From a virus: a DNA stretch of 64,000 nt. The notes under the pieces were generated by a model. That model did no database searches and was not told the DNA's origin. It saw only the letters and a list, made by a program, of their open reading frames with translations. The stretch is taken from IMG/VR virus record IMGVR_UViG_3300032224_001473, positions 1 to 64,000 of that record. One strand, given 5' to 3'. Positions within the stretch are counted from its first letter, which is position 1. Each line of letters begins with the position of its first letter. The translations under genes and the position numbers were made by a program. Below are positions 11,949 to 28,656 of the stretch, piece by piece.

Positions 11949-13846
11949 TGGAAAAGAAAGAAATATTATTACCAACCAAAAGGTACTTTAAGGCAGAAGA
12001 ACAAGATTTAAATCTTAGCGTTAAGTTAGAAAATGATGAAACATTGTTAAGACAAGGTGATAAAGATATTGTTTTAAATTTAGCTGATTTATTTAATGAA
12101 GAAAGAAATAAATCTATTAACTATAAAATTTACGGTAAAATAAAAATGGTATTTAGGAACATGTATTCAGGTTATACTCAATACCAACCATTATTAAGGA
12201 ACCTTTATTTATCAGGTGATGGTACAGGAAGTGATATTGGATTTGTACCATATAATGAATTTGCGTTTTTAAGAAATGATGTTGTAAGAGAAAAGACAAC
12301 ACCAAAATCAGGATCAACACTTGGATATCAAACTTCAGCACCGAGTATTACTTTAGATACGGGAACGCCGGTGGGTAGATACACGGGCCACACAACTATG
12401 TCATCGTTAGATGCACCATATAAAAATTGGAATTTGTATTTGAGTTATGTTGATTCACACGATACAGGATTCACAATGAATTATACATTATCTGGAGACA
12501 CAAATGGAGATAAGACATATTCATTTAAATCTAAAGATGGTATACCATTTAGGGTTGAATCAAATGATAATTATTATACATTAACATCACCTGTTGAACA
12601 TGGGATTTTACAAGGAGAACATATAATATTATCTGGATCAACAATGTTAAGTGGGTTGTCAATAAATAATAAAATTTTTTACGTTGATAGTGTCGGAAAT
12701 GAAATTTATAATTCAGAAAAATACGTAATAAATTTATTAAAAAGTGAACTTACTTTCGGTCATACATTAAGTGGAGTTACTTTTGTTTTGGGTAAAAGAT
12801 GTATTGACGTAAATGATATAACAGGAACAACATCAACATATTACGTACATAAACATAAAACATTAACAACAATAGATGACTACATTTTAGATAAAGTTGG
12901 TTTTGAAAATTCAATATGGGAAGACGAAAGAAAAATATTATTTGAAAATACATTACAAGAGAATGATGTTTTAGTGGAAAGAAACAGACAAGAGGCTTTG
13001 TTATTTGATTTTAAAAATACATTTTCATTATCAGGTATAACAAATAATTTAGGTTACACACCAACTGAGGTTTACGTCACAACAATTTTTAAAAATAGTA
13101 ATGGATTATTTGATTACCCACCAAAAGTAGGATTTAAATTTAATTTTCATGGATCGGAATCACCAACAGGTGAAAAAATAGGTTGGATTGATAATCAATT
13201 TAGTGGAACAACATCAGTTGAAAAGGCAATGAGTGGATTAACACAAACATTTAATGGTAAAAAAGTAACAATATTAGGTAATACATACAATTATACGGGT
13301 ACAACATTTACGGGCGGAACATCAATACCTTTAAACACAACCGGTATTACTGGTGCATTTGTTGAATATAATGAAAAAGAATTAAAGGAAAGAATTATAA
13401 GTGAAACATATCATAAGTTTTCACATTTAAAAATTGTAGGAGGAGTTCAAATATTTGATCATTATCAAGATCAATCAAGTTTTTATTCAGGTGCAACAAC
13501 AGGTAATACGGTCGGTTATTACTATCAACCACATTATAGAGTTAAACTAAGGGAATTATCACCATATATTGAAACATCAAAACTTGATGTAACGCAACCA
13601 AATACATTAGTTGATTTACCTGAAAACGCAATATACGACGAAAAAGAAAAACTTTGGAAATGGAGAGATCTTTATGATCACGGGTTTATTGATCAAGAAG
13701 GAAACGGAACAAATTTTCCATTTATAAATAATACACATTACGTAATTAAAAACATTAATTTTTATTTAAGAAATGAAAAATCTTATACAAATAAAAAAGA
13801 TAATTTAAATGGATTTAATAACTATAAAAATAAAACTAACTGTTAA
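11948..13846 (+). CDS. virion structural protein, probably baseplate or tail
   Basis: I do not recognise this 632-residue protein. It is a soluble, beta-rich, Thr/Ser/Gly/Asn-rich sequence with repeated SGTTS and SGATTG-like turns, a composition it shares with its neighbours from 8.2 to 26.9 kb. It starts KEILLPTKRYFKAEEQDLNLSVKL and has a basic Lys/Asn-rich end (NKKDNLNGFNNYKNKTNC). Coupled starts and stops on both sides (TAATG at 11948 and 13846) put it in one translation unit with the flanking proteins, so it is very likely a stoichiometric tail component. Position alone would suggest a gp8-like wedge role, but T4 gp8 is half this length. Confidence 0.7.
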   Translation: MEKKEILLPTKRYFKAEEQDLNLSVKLENDETLLRQGDKDIVLNLADLFNEERNKSINYKIYGKIKMVFRNMYSGYTQYQPLLRNLYLSGDGTGSDIGFVPYNEFAFLRNDVVREKTTPKSGSTLGYQTSAPSITLDTGTPVGRYTGHTTMSSLDAPYKNWNLYLSYVDSHDTGFTMNYTLSGDTNGDKTYSFKSKDGIPFRVESNDNYYTLTSPVEHGILQGEHIILSGSTMLSGLSINNKIFYVDSVGNEIYNSEKYVINLLKSELTFGHTLSGVTFVLGKRCIDVNDITGTTSTYYVHKHKTLTTIDDYILDKVGFENSIWEDERKILFENTLQENDVLVERNRQEALLFDFKNTFSLSGITNNLGYTPTEVYVTTIFKNSNGLFDYPPKVGFKFNFHGSESPTGEKIGWIDNQFSGTTSVEKAMSGLTQTFNGKKVTILGNTYNYTGTTFTGGTSIPLNTTGITGAFVEYNEKELKERIISETYHKFSHLKIVGGVQIFDHYQDQSSFYSGATTGNTVGYYYQPHYRVKLRELSPYIETSKLDVTQPNTLVDLPENAIYDEKEKLWKWRDLYDHGFIDQEGNGTNFPFINNTHYVIKNINFYLRNEKSYTNKKDNLNGFNNYKNKTNC

Positions 13847-20200: not shown

Positions 20201-22390
20201 ATTGATAATAATGGAGAAGAAAAAATTAAGTTAACATCATATAAGTATGGTCCTAATGATTGTGCAACTGATATATACGTTGATTTAATTGCAAGTGCAT
20301 TTACAGATACTTACGATTGTTCATTGGGACAAGGGTCTGCCATATATCAAATGGCAACACCTACACCAACTCCAACACCAACTGTTACACCAACACCAAA
20401 TCCAACAGCAACACCAACACCGGAACCAACTGCGACACCAACTGCAACACCAACTGCAACACCGACAGCAACACCAACTGTTACACCAACACCAGGACCG
20501 ACTAGTACACCAACATTAACCCCAACTCCAACACCAACGCCGAATTGTAATTTTAATGTTGACACAGAAATAGTAACTAGTACTCCAACACCAACACCTA
20601 CACCAACGCCAAATTGTAATTTTGATGTTAATATAGAAATAATAACTAGTACACCAACACCTACACCAACTCCAACTGTTACACCTACACCTACACCGGA
20701 TTGTAATTTTGATGTAGATATAGATATTATAACTAGCACACCTACACCTACCCCAACTTCAACACCAACACCTACACCAACACCAAATTGTAATTTTGAC
20801 GTAGATATAGATATTATTACTAGTACACCAACACCTACACCAACTCCAACTGTTACACCTACACCAACGCCGGATTGTAACTTTGACGTAAACGTTAACA
20901 TTACAACTTCAACCCCAACACCTACCCCAACATTAACACCAACACCGGAACCCACTAATACCCCAACTAGTACCCCCACACCAACAGCAACACCAGGACC
21001 GACTAGTACACCAACATTAACCCCAACTCCAACACCAACGCCATTTTATGATATAGTTTCTTATGGTGGACCTAGTGTAGGGGATGCTTGCTATAGTCCA
21101 TGGGATAGTTTTTCAATGTTAGGGAATACAACCGATTTCTGTACATTAGGAACATTAACAAGTAGTTCTTGGGTAACTATACCAACAAATAATTACTACG
21201 TAGTTTATAACGGCAACGTTAGAAACGTACAACATACTTTAGGTAATAATTTTGCACAAACAACAGATGTTGGATGTGGAACTTGTCCTACCCCAACCCC
21301 AACACCGGTACCAACTAATACACCAACACCAACCCCAACACCAACAATTGTTAGGTATTATTACGAAGGTTTACTTTGTGGAGGTAACATCGTTGGGAAT
21401 TTCTATTCAGAAACAAATTTAGGAGATAATCCAGGTATTGTTTACGCATATTCATCTCTTGGTGGAGAATCTAATAGATGTTTTGATTATATAACACCAA
21501 CTAATACACCAAACAATAATCCTATAATTGCAACATTTGAAGATTGTTCAACTTGTTTAGGTGAACCACCGACTCCAACACCATTACCAACCAATACACC
21601 AACACCGGTACCAACGGCAACACCGATACCAACTAGTACACCTGTACCAACACCTACACCAACGCCGGTTCCTTTTTCAGGACAAATATATTATGGATCT
21701 ACAATAAGTAGTGTATGTCCTTATGGGGCGGGTAGTAGTGGTTTTGTAACGGGAGACGGAACGACATTTTGTGGTAGTCAATATTTCACAGGTAATACAT
21801 TCGCATACCAATCATCAGGTTTCTATTATATGAACTTTGAAGGTAATGTGGTACAAATATCATTAACTTATGGTTCTAATGTTGTTGAAGTAATGAGTGC
21901 TTGTTTATCTTGTCCTACACCAACACCAACACCTGTACCAACTAATACACCTGTACCAACTAATACACCAACACCGGAACCAACAGCAACACCTGTACCG
22001 ACTAATACACCAACACCAACACCATTACCGGACGGTGTTTTAAGTTTTGGATCTACAGATGGTGGACAACAACCATGTGGACCTGGTTACGGACCTAATG
22101 ACTATGAGTATTATAGAACATATGAGGTTAATTTCACAAGTGCAAGAATAATAATGGGATATGTTGTTGTTATTTTAAGTGATTATTCAACTATAACAAT
22201 ACCATTTAATGAAAATGATACCTCCGCATCTAAAACCGTTTTCTGTGGATGTGGATCACCATGTGCTGACATGTCATATGTAATGAATATAATATACACT
22301 ACACCAACTCCAACCCCAACATTAGAACCAACATTTACACCAACACCAACAACTGAAGGAGGTGGAGGAGGTGGACTAGTACCTGAATAA
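17288..22390 (+). CDS. giant tail/baseplate protein with Thr-Pro linkers and Cys modules (adhesin-like)
   Basis: This 1700-residue protein has three parts. Residues 1-1020 are a globular virion domain. Around 425-470, [33 protein letters not shown] resembles the KGT...LE..L segment of phage tail protein I (P2 gpI-like), a baseplate component. Residues about 1023-1250 are almost pure Thr-Pro repeat, broken five times by NCNF(D/N)V modules. Residues 1250-1690 hold four modules of about 70-90 residues, each with several Cys and most ending in a C..C pair (CGTC, CSTC, CLSC), separated by Thr-Pro linkers. The end is a Gly6 stretch. I infer a baseplate-anchored fibre displaying small disulfide-bonded domains at the cell surface. 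Minus-strand ORFs opposite the repeat are shadows. Confidence 0.82.
20353..21045 (+). repeat. Thr-Pro coding repeat tract with NCNF-type submodules
   Basis: ACACCAAC-like hexanucleotide repeats encode (TP)n. They are interrupted by five similar segments starting AATTGTAATTTTGA/TAATTTT (NCNF or DCNF modules). A 55-bp segment is exactly duplicated at 20487-20541 and 20988-21042. Such near-identical copies could recombine and change the number of modules. Confidence 0.85.
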
Positions 22391-22405
22391 AACAAAATAA
22401 TAAGA

Positions 22406-22413
22406 TATTTATA
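22406..22413 (+). promoter_or_regulatory. TATTTATA box
   Basis: Exact TATTTATA in the 39-nt gap before the 166-residue adhesin-like gene, 16 nt from its ATG. Confidence 0.45.
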
Positions 22414-22429
22414 AAAAGAAACAAAATAT

Positions 22430-22930
22430 ATGAACGTAACATTTACATTAACATCAGCAACATCGGGAACAACTGCATCTACTGTATTTAATATTTCAGG
22501 AAAAACATCTTCAAATGTTGTTAGTGAACTTGCAACAGGTATAACTAAATTACAATTAACAACTGGACACACAATTAATGGTGTTAATGATGCAATAACA
22601 GGTGGAACAATAGCAAGTACAAGCCCAAGTTCTTGCACAGGAGTTACAACAACTTGGTTGGTCATACAACCAACACCAACACCAACCCCAACAGCAACAC
22701 CGGTATCAACGTACTATGTTTATGAATTATGTGGTTGGTCAGACCCATCAGAACGTTATAAATATATACTATATAGTAACACATATGGTAGTAAAGGTTT
22801 AGTTAATGGAACAACCTGTTCATTATTAGATAGTGGACCTACTGCTATAACATATGCATCAGTAGGGACATTATACCCACTAGCAATGCCAATGATTTCA
22901 TTTACAACCAATAATTGCGAATGTAATTAA
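22430..22930 (+). CDS. small Thr-Pro-linker protein with one Cys module
   Basis: This 166-residue protein repeats the architecture of the neighbouring giant protein in miniature. A Thr/Ser-rich N-terminal domain (about 1-80, NVTFTLTSATSGTTASTVFN) is followed by a short [14 protein letters not shown] linker. A single Cys-containing module ends in NNCECN, where the other modules end in C..C. It probably forms part of the same surface-exposed adhesion apparatus, perhaps as an accessory decoration protein. The gene stands alone between a TATTTATA box and a strong terminator, so it looks like a single-gene transcript that could be made at high level. Confidence 0.75.
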   Translation: MNVTFTLTSATSGTTASTVFNISGKTSSNVVSELATGITKLQLTTGHTINGVNDAITGGTIASTSPSSCTGVTTTWLVIQPTPTPTPTATPVSTYYVYELCGWSDPSERYKYILYSNTYGSKGLVNGTTCSLLDSGPTAITYASVGTLYPLAMPMISFTTNNCECN

Positions 22931-22951: not shown

Positions 22952-22979
22952 AAAACCCCTTTATTTTAAGGGGTTTTTT
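22952..22979 (+). terminator. rho-independent terminator
   Basis: A 10-bp stem (AAAACCCCTT / AAGGGGTTTT) with a 6-nt loop, followed by a T-run, 22 nt after the stop at 22930. It ends the tail transcript read from the left. Confidence 0.9.
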
Positions 22980-23011: not shown

Positions 23012-24754
23012 ATGCCAGAATATTTTAGTGCAAATGTAAACATCGGAAAAAAAGGTAACTCAATTGAAAAAGTTAGTTTATATGCTTGCTCTGGATCAAC
23101 AGAACAAACATGTGACCCTACACCAATTTCGGGTTACAATAATATTCTATGGACAGATACAAAATTTTCACCACTTTTTGAGAGCGGTTCGTATCCATCA
23201 TTATCAGGATTAGTAACATTTATAACGGGATTAACGTTATACACGCACACATATATTAGAGTATTAACAACATCAAGTTATAATGATCCTTGTGTAATTA
23301 GTAGAATGATACCAATTAGCGGTATCCCAACACCTACCCCAACCCCAACACCGGTACCAACTAATACACCAGTACCTACAGCTACACCAACTGCAACACC
23401 TACATTAACTCCAACACCGGTACCAACTAATACACCAACGGCGACACCAACGGCGACACCTACATTAACACCTACACCAACACCAACTATTACACCAACT
23501 CCAACACCTACACAAGAAGTTGTTGATACTAATTTATATTATTACTATAGGTTAGGTGATTGCCAATATATGGGTTACACAACGCAACAAATAACAAATA
23601 CAGGATTTGGTATTATACGAATTACAGGTTTATGTTCTTCATATATAACTAATTTTTTAGAAGATCCAGCACATACATCATATTACACTGATTACAACGA
23701 TCCTTGTGGTTTTGCAAGTGGATACACATATACTGTATTTGGTAAAAGTTTAAAATCTAATCCACATATACCGGAAGGTACTGTTTTTACAATCGGAGAT
23801 CAATGTTTATCGGTAGTATGGATAGAAGAACAATATTTACCTGTATCGATTTCTTTAATTAGTTTAGACGGGTTAACTCCTGAACCTGGTGATAATCCTT
23901 GTAATACTTGTCAACCACCATTTACTGGATTAACATTTAATTGGTATGTTTATGGTGCAACAAGATGTGATGACCCAACAAGTAATATTTTAGTTTATAG
24001 TATATTCCCTTACACATATGATGCAACACCATATGCGCCGAACAATATAACAGGGTTACCTAAATTATCGTCATTACAGACAGGATTAACATATTCAATG
24101 GTAACATATAACTCAAGTGGTGATGTTATTGATGATGGATATTGTGCAACTATTACAAGTTATTATGGAGTATTTACAGGTCAAACAGTACAAGTTCCAT
24201 TATTACCACTTACAGATCCTGTAACATATAAAAACTTACCAATAGGAGTTCAAGCAGTAGAGGGTCATTATTCATTGGATTGTCCAAGTTGTACTCCATT
24301 ATATTATGCCAACACCGCTCAAAAATGTGGTAGTGGGTATGAATTAAGTGACGATCCGATTTGGTCAACAGTAAAATTAAACGAAGGTGATATAATAAAA
24401 GACAATAATGGTGTTTGTAGAAGAGTATTGTATGCAAACTCATATAGAGATACAAAATATGAAGGATATTGGCAATCACAAGCTCATACTGGAATTATAA
24501 GTATGGTGGGTACTAAGTATACAAATAATGATTGTAGTAGTTGTACATCTGGTGGATCCACAGTAGTGTGTGATAGTTATACCATGTTAAATACAGACCA
24601 TAATTATGATACATATTATTCATATGACGATTGTGATGGTAATACACAAACGGGTTCATTAGGACCTAATAGAGACATGACATTCTGTGCTGAACGAGGA
24701 AGTGTTTCCACAGGAGGAGCTGATTTGACAAATAATGGAACATGTACATCTTAA
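23012..24754 (+). CDS. Thr-Pro-linker adhesin-like protein
   Basis: This 580-residue protein has an N-terminal globular domain (about 1-108), then a Thr-Pro linker of about 60 residues ([20 protein letters not shown] and similar). About 400 residues of Cys-containing modules follow, with [16 protein letters not shown] and [10 protein letters not shown] boundaries. The pattern of about 80-130 residue modules ending in CxxC is the same as in the proteins at 17288 and 22430. It probably works as a host-binding or virion-decoration protein. It is preceded by a terminator and its own TATTTATA box. I cannot assign a ligand or a known family. Confidence 0.77.
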
Positions 24755-26951: not shown

Positions 26952-27560
26952 ATGAGTATAGATATTAATTTCAAAAACAAACCAAAGATTTTAGGATTGG
27001 ATATTTCCACTAAAACTATTGGGTTTGCATTGTTTGATATGACAGGTTCTAAATTATTAGAACTAACACATTTTTCACCAAAAATTAAACCACAACCTGA
27101 AGATAAGATTGAGGAGTTAATTAAAAAGGCAGATGCATTTAAAAAACATTTGGAAAGTTATAAAGACATGGGAATTCTTCGTGTTATCATTGAAGAACCA
27201 TTGTTGCAGTCAAATAACATCTATACTATAGGAACATTATTACGTTATAATACATTGATACTTAAGAACTGTTATGATGTGTTAGGAGTGTTACCAACAT
27301 TCATTTCAACGTATAACTCAAGAAAATTTGCATTCCCTGATTTGGTTGGTCCAAATGATAAAGGACGTAATGTTTTATTTGGTGGATACCCAAGAGATAT
27401 TGATAAGAAACACGTTATTTGGGAACACGTTAATAGTGTATGTCCTGATATCAATTGGTTATACGGTAAAACGGGTAATCTTAAAAAAGAAAATTATGAT
27501 ATGGCAGATGCCGCATGTTGTGTTATTGGTTATGTTAACATGAACAAACAAACATCTTAA
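26952..27560 (+). CDS. RuvC-like Holliday junction nuclease (RNase H fold)
   Basis: This 202-residue protein shows the RuvC arrangement of catalytic acids: D17 in KILGLDISTKTIGFAL, E81/E82 in RVIIEEPL, and D183/D186 in NYDMADAACCVIGY. RuvC enzymes cut four-way junctions symmetrically. T4 uses endonuclease VII for this, so a RuvC-type enzyme here would be the functional replacement for resolving recombination intermediates before packaging. It sits just before a candidate small RNA and the primase gene. A non-RuvC member of the same fold, such as a junction-binding regulator, remains possible. Confidence 0.8.
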   Translation: MSIDINFKNKPKILGLDISTKTIGFALFDMTGSKLLELTHFSPKIKPQPEDKIEELIKKADAFKKHLESYKDMGILRVIIEEPLLQSNNIYTIGTLLRYNTLILKNCYDVLGVLPTFISTYNSRKFAFPDLVGPNDKGRNVLFGGYPRDIDKKHVIWEHVNSVCPDINWLYGKTGNLKKENYDMADAACCVIGYVNMNKQTS

Positions 27561-27565
27561 AATAT

Positions 27566-27594
27566 TCGGCAACTAAAGTTTTACTTTACGAGAT
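27566..27594 (+). promoter_or_regulatory. upstream element with CGGCAA and ACGAGAT blocks
   Basis: CGGCAA at 27567-27572 and ACGAGAT at 27588-27594, 15 nt apart, followed 10 nt later by a TATTTATA box. The same two blocks recur at 30838-30865. TTTTAC/GTAAAA around the second block can form a 6-bp hairpin here but not in the other copy. Confidence 0.35.
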
Positions 27595-27604
27595 GTAAAA
27601 GATA

Positions 27605-27612
27605 TATTTATA
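27605..27612 (+). promoter_or_regulatory. TATTTATA box before the candidate small RNA
   Basis: Exact TATTTATA upstream of a GC-rich structured segment that ends in a strong terminator, with no gene start in between. Confidence 0.5.
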
Positions 27613-27615
27613 TTA

Positions 27616-27687
27616 GGACGGGACGAGAGTTAAAAGACTCGTTTGGTTGGAGGGAGTCGGCGTGGTGTCCGGCTCCCATTTTTTTTT
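27616..27687 (+). ncRNA. candidate structured small RNA
   Basis: About 70 nt of strikingly GC-rich sequence in a very AT-rich genome, lying between the RuvC-like gene and the primase and containing no convincing ORF. It can fold into a 5' hairpin (GGACGAG 27621-27627 with CTCGTTT 27638-27644, including two G-U pairs) and a 9-bp terminator hairpin (27652-27677) followed by T9. A TATTTATA box stands just upstream. The exact 5' end is unknown. It is not a tRNA, having no cloverleaf or T-arm consensus. It could be a regulatory sRNA, or a leader/attenuator for the primase gene, whose ATG is at 27715. Confidence 0.5.
27652..27687 (+). terminator. strong rho-independent terminator
   Basis: GGGAGTCGG pairs with CCGGCTCCC over 9 bp (one G-U), with an 8-nt loop, followed by nine T. 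It lies 28 nt before the primase ATG, so it ends a short transcript or attenuates the primase message. Confidence 0.9.
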
Positions 27688-27714
27688 ATCATACTTTTTT
27701 ATTATATTATAATC

Positions 27715-28656
27715 ATGAACACCCAAGAAGTAGATTATTCTGCCGTATTTGACATTTTAGAAGATATATTTGGTGACTATAAGAATCATAATGATTATAG
27801 ATATCAAGTATCATTTGATTGTCCTGTGTGTTCACATGAAATTAAAGGATTAGATAAAGGAGACGGTAAAGGAAACCTTGAAATCAATTACAAATATGGT
27901 GTCTATAAATGTTGGGTATGTGCTGAGACACATAATACCCACGGATCGATCTATAAGTTAATTAAGAAGTTTGGCAATCCAAAACAATTAAAGAAATATC
28001 TTTTACTAAAACCTGAAGATGATGAGGAGATAGCTGCAAGAACATATAAACCTGTAAAATTACCAAAAGAATTTATTTTATTTAAAGATGCTAGCATGGG
28101 ACTTAAGATGACCCCACAATACAAGCAGGCATACAATTATATTAAAAATAGACACATAACAGATTTAATGTTGCAGATATATAATATTGGATTTTGTTAT
28201 AGTGGACCATACGAAAGTAGAATTATAATTCCATCTTATGATGAAAATAAAAGATTGAATTATTTTATCGCCCGTTCTTATTTACAGAAGACAAAGAGAA
28301 AATATATGAATCCTGAAGCACAAAAGGAAACAATTATTTTTAATGAACATTTAATTAATTGGGACGAACCAATCTACATAGTAGAAGGGGCTTTCGATAG
28401 TATTTTTATTCCTAACGCAATTCCAATGTTAGGAAAATTTATTAGCGAACATTTATTTATGAAACTCTACAATAATGCCAAAAAAATAGTTATAGTGTTA
28501 GATCCCGATGCGTATGACGACCAAGAAAGATTATACCACAGATTAAACTGCGGTAAATTAATGGGAAAAGTGTGGAGTATAAAATTAGAGGGAGACAAAG
28601 ATATTGCCGATTTACAAGGGAACATAAGTGAATATAAAATGAAACAAATAGATTAG
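27715..28656 (+). CDS. DNA primase, DnaG type (zinc finger plus Toprim)
   Basis: This 313-residue protein starts with a zinc-binding domain, C36-P-V-C39 and C66-W-V-C69. A primase core and Toprim motifs follow: IYIVEGAFDS (E224, D228) and VIVLDPDAYDD (D263, D265). DnaG-type primases make the RNA primers for lagging-strand synthesis and work with the DnaB-type helicase (1957 here). The protein is short because the C-terminal helicase-binding domain is reduced, as in T4 gp61. I use ATG 27715. A TTG at 27643 in the same frame would translate the terminator hairpin into a meaningless peptide. The next gene starts 1 nt after the stop. Confidence 0.87.
   Translation: MNTQEVDYSAVFDILEDIFGDYKNHNDYRYQVSFDCPVCSHEIKGLDKGDGKGNLEINYKYGVYKCWVCAETHNTHGSIYKLIKKFGNPKQLKKYLLLKPEDDEEIAARTYKPVKLPKEFILFKDASMGLKMTPQYKQAYNYIKNRHITDLMLQIYNIGFCYSGPYESRIIIPSYDENKRLNYFIARSYLQKTKRKYMNPEAQKETIIFNEHLINWDEPIYIVEGAFDSIFIPNAIPMLGKFISEHLFMKLYNNAKKIVIVLDPDAYDDQERLYHRLNCGKLMGKVWSIKLEGDKDIADLQGNISEYKMKQID

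Follow-up and report, generated by a model that had tools for sequence, protein, structure and literature searches.

The 154-base gap between a resolvase gene and a primase gene in a virus record contains an element which, judged by comparison with relatives, is a real and previously uncatalogued RNA family, common to dozens of related phages. The record, IMGVR_UViG_3300032224_001473 of IMG/VR, is 66.5 kb long; positions 1-64,000 were analysed and are called the window below. We consider it rather probable that the element is an independently transcribed phage small RNA of ~72 nt, which would act via a fixed loop and a hairpin foot.

Locus and predicted structure

The element occupies the middle of the intergenic gap. 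The features are distributed as follows, all on the + strand:

26952..27560, +, RuvC-like Holliday junction resolvase gene, upstream neighbour (PHROG 159, E 4.4e-6; context in relatives)
27603..27610, +, TATATTTA box, promoter-like -7 element for the RNA (Bacteroidota TAnnTTTG type)
27615..27687, +, small RNA, ~72 nt (putative 5' end at 27615-27617; 3' end within the T run)
27617..27648, +, hairpin 1 (GAC 27617-27619 pairs with GUU 27646-27648; 27621-27627 pairs with 27638-27644)
27649..27651, +, linker GGA (both G 97-99% conserved as columns)
27652..27677, +, hairpin 2, an intrinsic terminator (9-bp stem 27652-27660 / 27669-27677)
27661..27668, +, terminator octaloop CGUGGUGU (GUGGUGU almost invariant among relatives)
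27679..27687, +, T9 run of the terminator (T columns 86-100% conserved)
27703..27710, +, TATATTAT box, promoter-like, before the primase ATG (27715)
27715..28656, +, DnaG-type primase gene, usual downstream neighbour (PHROG 47, E 2.4e-38; Pfam DNAG_N at cut-off)

The preliminary description had placed the element at the correct coordinates and had pointed to a GC-rich stretch in an AT-rich genome. At 61% GC, 27616-27677 is richer than any other 62-nt stretch of the 64 kb; the mean over the window is 32.8%. The same description held that the stretch contains no ORF; a mechanical TTG start at 27643 does read into the primase frame. However, relatives have the next gene in each of the three frames relative to the RNA about equally often (26/22/22), so no conserved protein covers the RNA, and in that sense the statement stands.

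Folded as + strand RNA, the element is predicted to form two hairpins (-28.4 kcal/mol, z = -2.95), and the covariance model R1 matches the window at 27615-27686 with 71.5 bits (E 4e-18). Hairpin 1 includes a G.G mismatch (27620/27645) and a loop, AGUUAAAAGA, at 27628-27637. A GC-rich stem followed by a U run, as expected of an intrinsic terminator, is found in hairpin 2 only. Hairpin 2 and its T9 run are the top entry of the terminator list obtained from the 20 kb scanned; the 9-bp terminator hairpin plus T9 that had been proposed is thus present, and it is conserved in relatives.

Three other observations concern the window upstream of the element. The resolvase of the window ends early compared to its relatives (27558-27578), and the CGGCAACTAA found past its stop resembles a remnant of the KSGN-stop end of these relatives. 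This conserved CGGCAACTAA upstream of the box was considered as a promoter part and rejected, since in relatives it is the resolvase C-terminus. A perfect inverted repeat, AAAACCCCTT...AAGGGGTTTT, lies at 22952-22977 between two tail-region genes and is terminator-like on either strand. Tail-region genes also carry long runs of ACACCAAC (Thr-Pro) repeats, at 20363-22686 and 23384-23499.

Covariation and fixed positions

We collected 70 distinct RNAs. A covariance model built from nine of them recovers 69, one per locus, and misses the divergent RNA of locus L060. In the 69 aligned RNAs, 98.1% of the pair cells are paired and 17 of the 21 pairs are altered on both sides in some sequence. The covariation score is 0.792 (0.208 after shuffling), and 416 cells are changed on both sides where shuffles lead one to expect 132; fitting the alignment to the structure flatters these values, but the raw sequences, inspected by eye, give the same picture. 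When the partner is slid by 1-3 bases, pairing falls to 34-56% and the score to at most 0.25. A set of 36 RNAs behaves likewise (98.1% of cells paired, score 0.69 vs 0.18 shuffled). Both hairpins contribute: hairpin 1 has 98.0% of its cells paired and both-side changes in 8 of 12 pairs, hairpin 2 has 98.2% and 9 of 9. Conservation of the hairpins with compensatory changes in relatives had been named beforehand as the test of the element, and its outcome is strongly in favour.

The pairing also indicates a strand. G-U accounts for 281 of the 1423 pair cells (20%), and three G-U pairs in the hairpin 1 foot are almost fixed. Pairing drops from 98.1% on the + strand to 78.4% on the - strand, A-C cells numbering only 5. 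Taken with the T run on the same strand, the G-U cells point to a structure that resides in a + strand RNA, which would be transcribed from left to right.

Near-fixed primary sequence is present only in two places. The first is the foot of hairpin 1, GACGGG...UUUnGUUGG, of which all columns except n are 87-100% conserved. The second is the terminator loop GUGGUGU (columns 131-137: G 97%, UGGUG 100%, U 90%), where the invariance of the core is partly by construction, because UGGUG was used in the search that gathered the later RNAs; the unbiased test is the primase-only fetch described below. Outside the hairpin 1 foot, column conservation in the stems is 41-77%. The terminator stems GGGAGUCGG/CCGGCUCCC, GGGGCGAGA/UCUCGCCCC and UCCCUCGGA/UCCGGGGGA, for instance, differ widely and enclose an identical loop. 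The loop of hairpin 1 is variable: 29 of the tree rows have a GAAA-type loop and 20 a UUAAAA-type loop, with several switches on the primase tree. A G-quadruplex formed from the GG runs was dropped, because these runs are not all conserved.

Occurrence among relatives

A first search with the primase protein alone gave 80 loci. The element precedes the primase in all 64 loci whose primases are 62-98% identical; it is absent from the 16 loci with 47-53% identical primases, where resolvase and primase almost abut. A primase alignment, used as query in a second search, contributed another 80 locus entries, some contigs being present in both sets. Over both primase-fetched sets, a UGGUG-loop hairpin is present in 143 of the 144 entries with primase identity above ~60%, 140 of them detected automatically and three (L056, L355 and L372) read by eye in the sequence. 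The sole entry without the hairpin is L371, and L372 has lost hairpin 1 and kept the terminator hairpin alone; the RNA is therefore not essential everywhere.

On the primase tree, the RNA-less phages all lie on one side of a single branch (split support 99/98), a distribution explained by a single gain or a single loss. In L371, which is outside that tree, the RNA would have been lost later. Contigs of up to 335 kb carry one copy of the RNA, and no convincing second copy was found in the 33 virus records searched. The model gave further weak matches in G030, G002 and L067, which turned out to be coding sequence or common terminators. L236, L284 and L238 contain GTGGTGT-loop hairpins in other, unrelated surroundings; these do not have the GACGGG foot and, by a rough estimate and not a computed one, are about as many as the pattern searched would yield by chance. 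A loose DNA pattern for the element gave many chance matches in GC-rich contigs.

Two loci show particular forms of the RNA. In L280 (7312-7436, - strand), hairpin 1 keeps its stem and has an insertion of ~58 nt in its apical loop. In L059 (4900-4971), an RNA like that of the window group is set in flanks of the L014/L021 group, a mismatch which suggests exchange of the RNA by recombination. A more general exchange of hairpin alleles between near-identical phages was not retained: striking by protein identity, it is modest in DNA (9 of 63 close pairs, 7 of them with L059).

Promoter-like boxes and transcription units

The main sigma factor of Bacteroidota recognizes a -7 consensus TAnnTTTG, confirmed in Flavobacterium johnsoniae too (PMC7366714). 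The preliminary description had mentioned an upstream box; TATTTATA is indeed present at 27605-27612, but is better read as TATATTTA at 27603-27610. At least 7 of the 8 positions of this box are matched in the adjacent upstream interval of 64 of 68 relatives, compared to 2-12 of ~69 in intervals farther upstream, and the box starts 12-17 nt before the GAC in 65 of 69.

All 69 of 69 relatives have a second box, TATATT(T), which matches at 5-7 of 7 positions and lies 10-18 nt ahead of the next ATG. This distance from the ATG implies a primase mRNA that would be leaderless or almost so; leaderless mRNAs are rare in Bacteroides (PMC7366714). From the conserved TATATTTA box and the second box before the ATG, it is most likely that the RNA has its own start and stop and that the primase restarts past the terminator, almost without leader, a separate transcription that rests on consensus-like boxes within an AT-rich region.

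The gene order varies in two relatives. L206 has the order resolvase, RNA, aminotransferase, primase; the aminotransferase gene inserted between RNA and primase (12218-13441) is of class III and has a TATATT box of its own. In L371, a 173-aa gene (2390-2911) follows the resolvase and overlaps its end, and the RNA is lost; a plain terminator and the primase's own box are retained before the primase.

Database and literature searches

Searched against Rfam 15 at the curated gathering threshold, neither the window nor 11 relatives gave a match. At a permissive threshold chance matches alone appeared, the best with 17.5 bits where 60 are needed. A T-box riboswitch was considered because the loop contains UGGU, and rejected as without match in Rfam. 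BLASTN against 50,697 phage records gave no match, nor did model R1 against 296 sampled genomes from the phylum of the L376 genome (Paludibacteraceae), with filters that drop weak matches. In another whole-genome scan, some genuine but divergent RNAs, e.g. those of L250 and L225, escaped detection. A literature search found no report of such an RNA.

Among cultured phages, those of Flavobacterium have the nearest primases (35% identity), and the hosts are probably Bacteroidota. Three remote matches excepted, the primase family is absent from the genomes of bacterial species, which fits lytic phages.

Possible function

The reading that we favour is the following. RNA polymerase would start at the TATATTTA box, the RNA beginning at ~27616 and stopping in the T9 run, and the primase would be transcribed separately from its own box. 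The RNA would then, with less certainty, act in trans, its helices serving as a scaffold and the fixed loop and foot as a recognition surface for one partner, possibly a protein or an RNA with an ACACCAC-like sequence. The terminator would additionally insulate the tail/resolvase genes from the replication genes. A fixed foot and a fixed loop spaced by a freely changing helix of ~9-11 pairs may be the look of a recognition RNA. The regulatory small RNA proposed in the preliminary description is supported, as far as sequence goes, by a conserved structure, a terminator of its own and a promoter-like box at constant distance; its expression and any regulatory effect are putative.

The main rival, which we regard as unlikely, is a boundary working in cis only: the 3' end of the tail-resolvase transcript with a strong insulating terminator, free of any function as a separate RNA. 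The strong terminator stands exactly at the border of two gene groups, a plain terminator occupies the same place in Flavobacterium phage immuto and in L371, and the terminator hairpin is all that L372 retains. However, conservation reaches 87-100% in the GUGGUGU loop and in the GACGGG/UUUnGUUGG foot, the stems being free, and a promoter-like box is found at a fixed distance from hairpin 1. Termination needs neither the fixed loop nor hairpin 1, and this is the main reason to favour a trans-acting RNA over a plain insulator.

A trans-acting small RNA could also be cut from the 3' UTR of the resolvase mRNA and have no promoter of its own. Small RNAs derived from 3' UTRs are a known class, and the terminator and location fit such an origin; the conserved TATATTTA box directly upstream in 64 of 68 relatives speaks against it and leaves this origin with a slim chance.

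The RNA lies 5' of the primase in nearly all relatives and includes a terminator, as would a riboswitch-like leader or attenuator controlling the primase gene. The attenuating leader envisaged in the preliminary description is nevertheless very improbable. A separate conserved box is present between terminator and ATG, in L206 RNA and primase are separated by an aminotransferase gene that has its own box, and the primase of L371 does without the RNA. Moreover, each terminator arm covaries only with the other and does not pair with slid partners, so that no conserved antiterminator is visible.

A DNA element, e.g. an origin, single-strand or cruciform, that the neighbouring primase would recognise, has hardly any likelihood: the inverted repeats do adjoin a DnaG-type primase, and covariation by itself cannot separate DNA from RNA, but the G-U cells, among them the three nearly fixed ones at the hairpin 1 foot, would be mismatches in DNA, the - strand pairs far less well with just 5 A-C cells, and in L206 the RNA stays beside the resolvase and not the primase.

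As to a partner of the favoured trans-acting RNA, no enrichment of complements of the loop or linker was observed near 37 gene starts of the window. An ACACCAC target at the primase start, seen in L051, L233, L243 and L250, was rejected as missing in most relatives. UGGUG, the invariant core of the loop, is exactly complementary to CACCA, a five-base match spotted by eye, and CACCA (C72, A73 and CCA) is the 3' end common to many tRNAs. We hold it for very doubtful that the RNA captures tRNA 3' ends, or another host RNA, through the terminator loop; if it did, the terminator would double as the binding part of a trans-acting RNA. More generally, a terminator with better conservation in the loop than in the stem suggests that terminators can have a second role as binding elements. 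The RNA offers a precise bait for pull-down or loop swap, since its family spans the clade, is described by a covariance model, sits at one syntenic position and has a fixed, recognition-like loop.

Comparison with known systems

Small RNAs are known from few phages. The OOP RNA of lambda is a short phage RNA with its own promoter and intrinsic terminator, located beside the replication genes and antisense to a neighbouring gene. The window RNA is likewise short, has a promoter-like box and a terminator, and lies beside replication genes; unlike OOP, it has no gene opposite, and it shows no sequence relation to OOP and no match in Rfam. The CI immunity RNA of phage P4 (~70 nt) is encoded upstream of the primase gene and pairs with leader sites of its own operon. 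Size (~72 nt) and position upstream of a primase gene are similar here, whereas no conserved complementary site is found near the primase start, and the primase has its own box.

The c4 antisense RNA of P1/P7-type phages (RF01695) is listed in PMC2864571. The window RNA resembles it in being structured and phage-borne, but belongs to other phages and another context, with no match at the Rfam gathering threshold in the window and 11 relatives. No obvious Hfq or ProQ is present in Bacteroides (PMC7366714). Finally, the terminator of Flavobacterium phage immuto (MW353175) is plain, having neither the GACGGG hairpin nor the GUGGUGU loop, but this phage shares with the window the order primase then exonuclease and a terminator just before the primase start.
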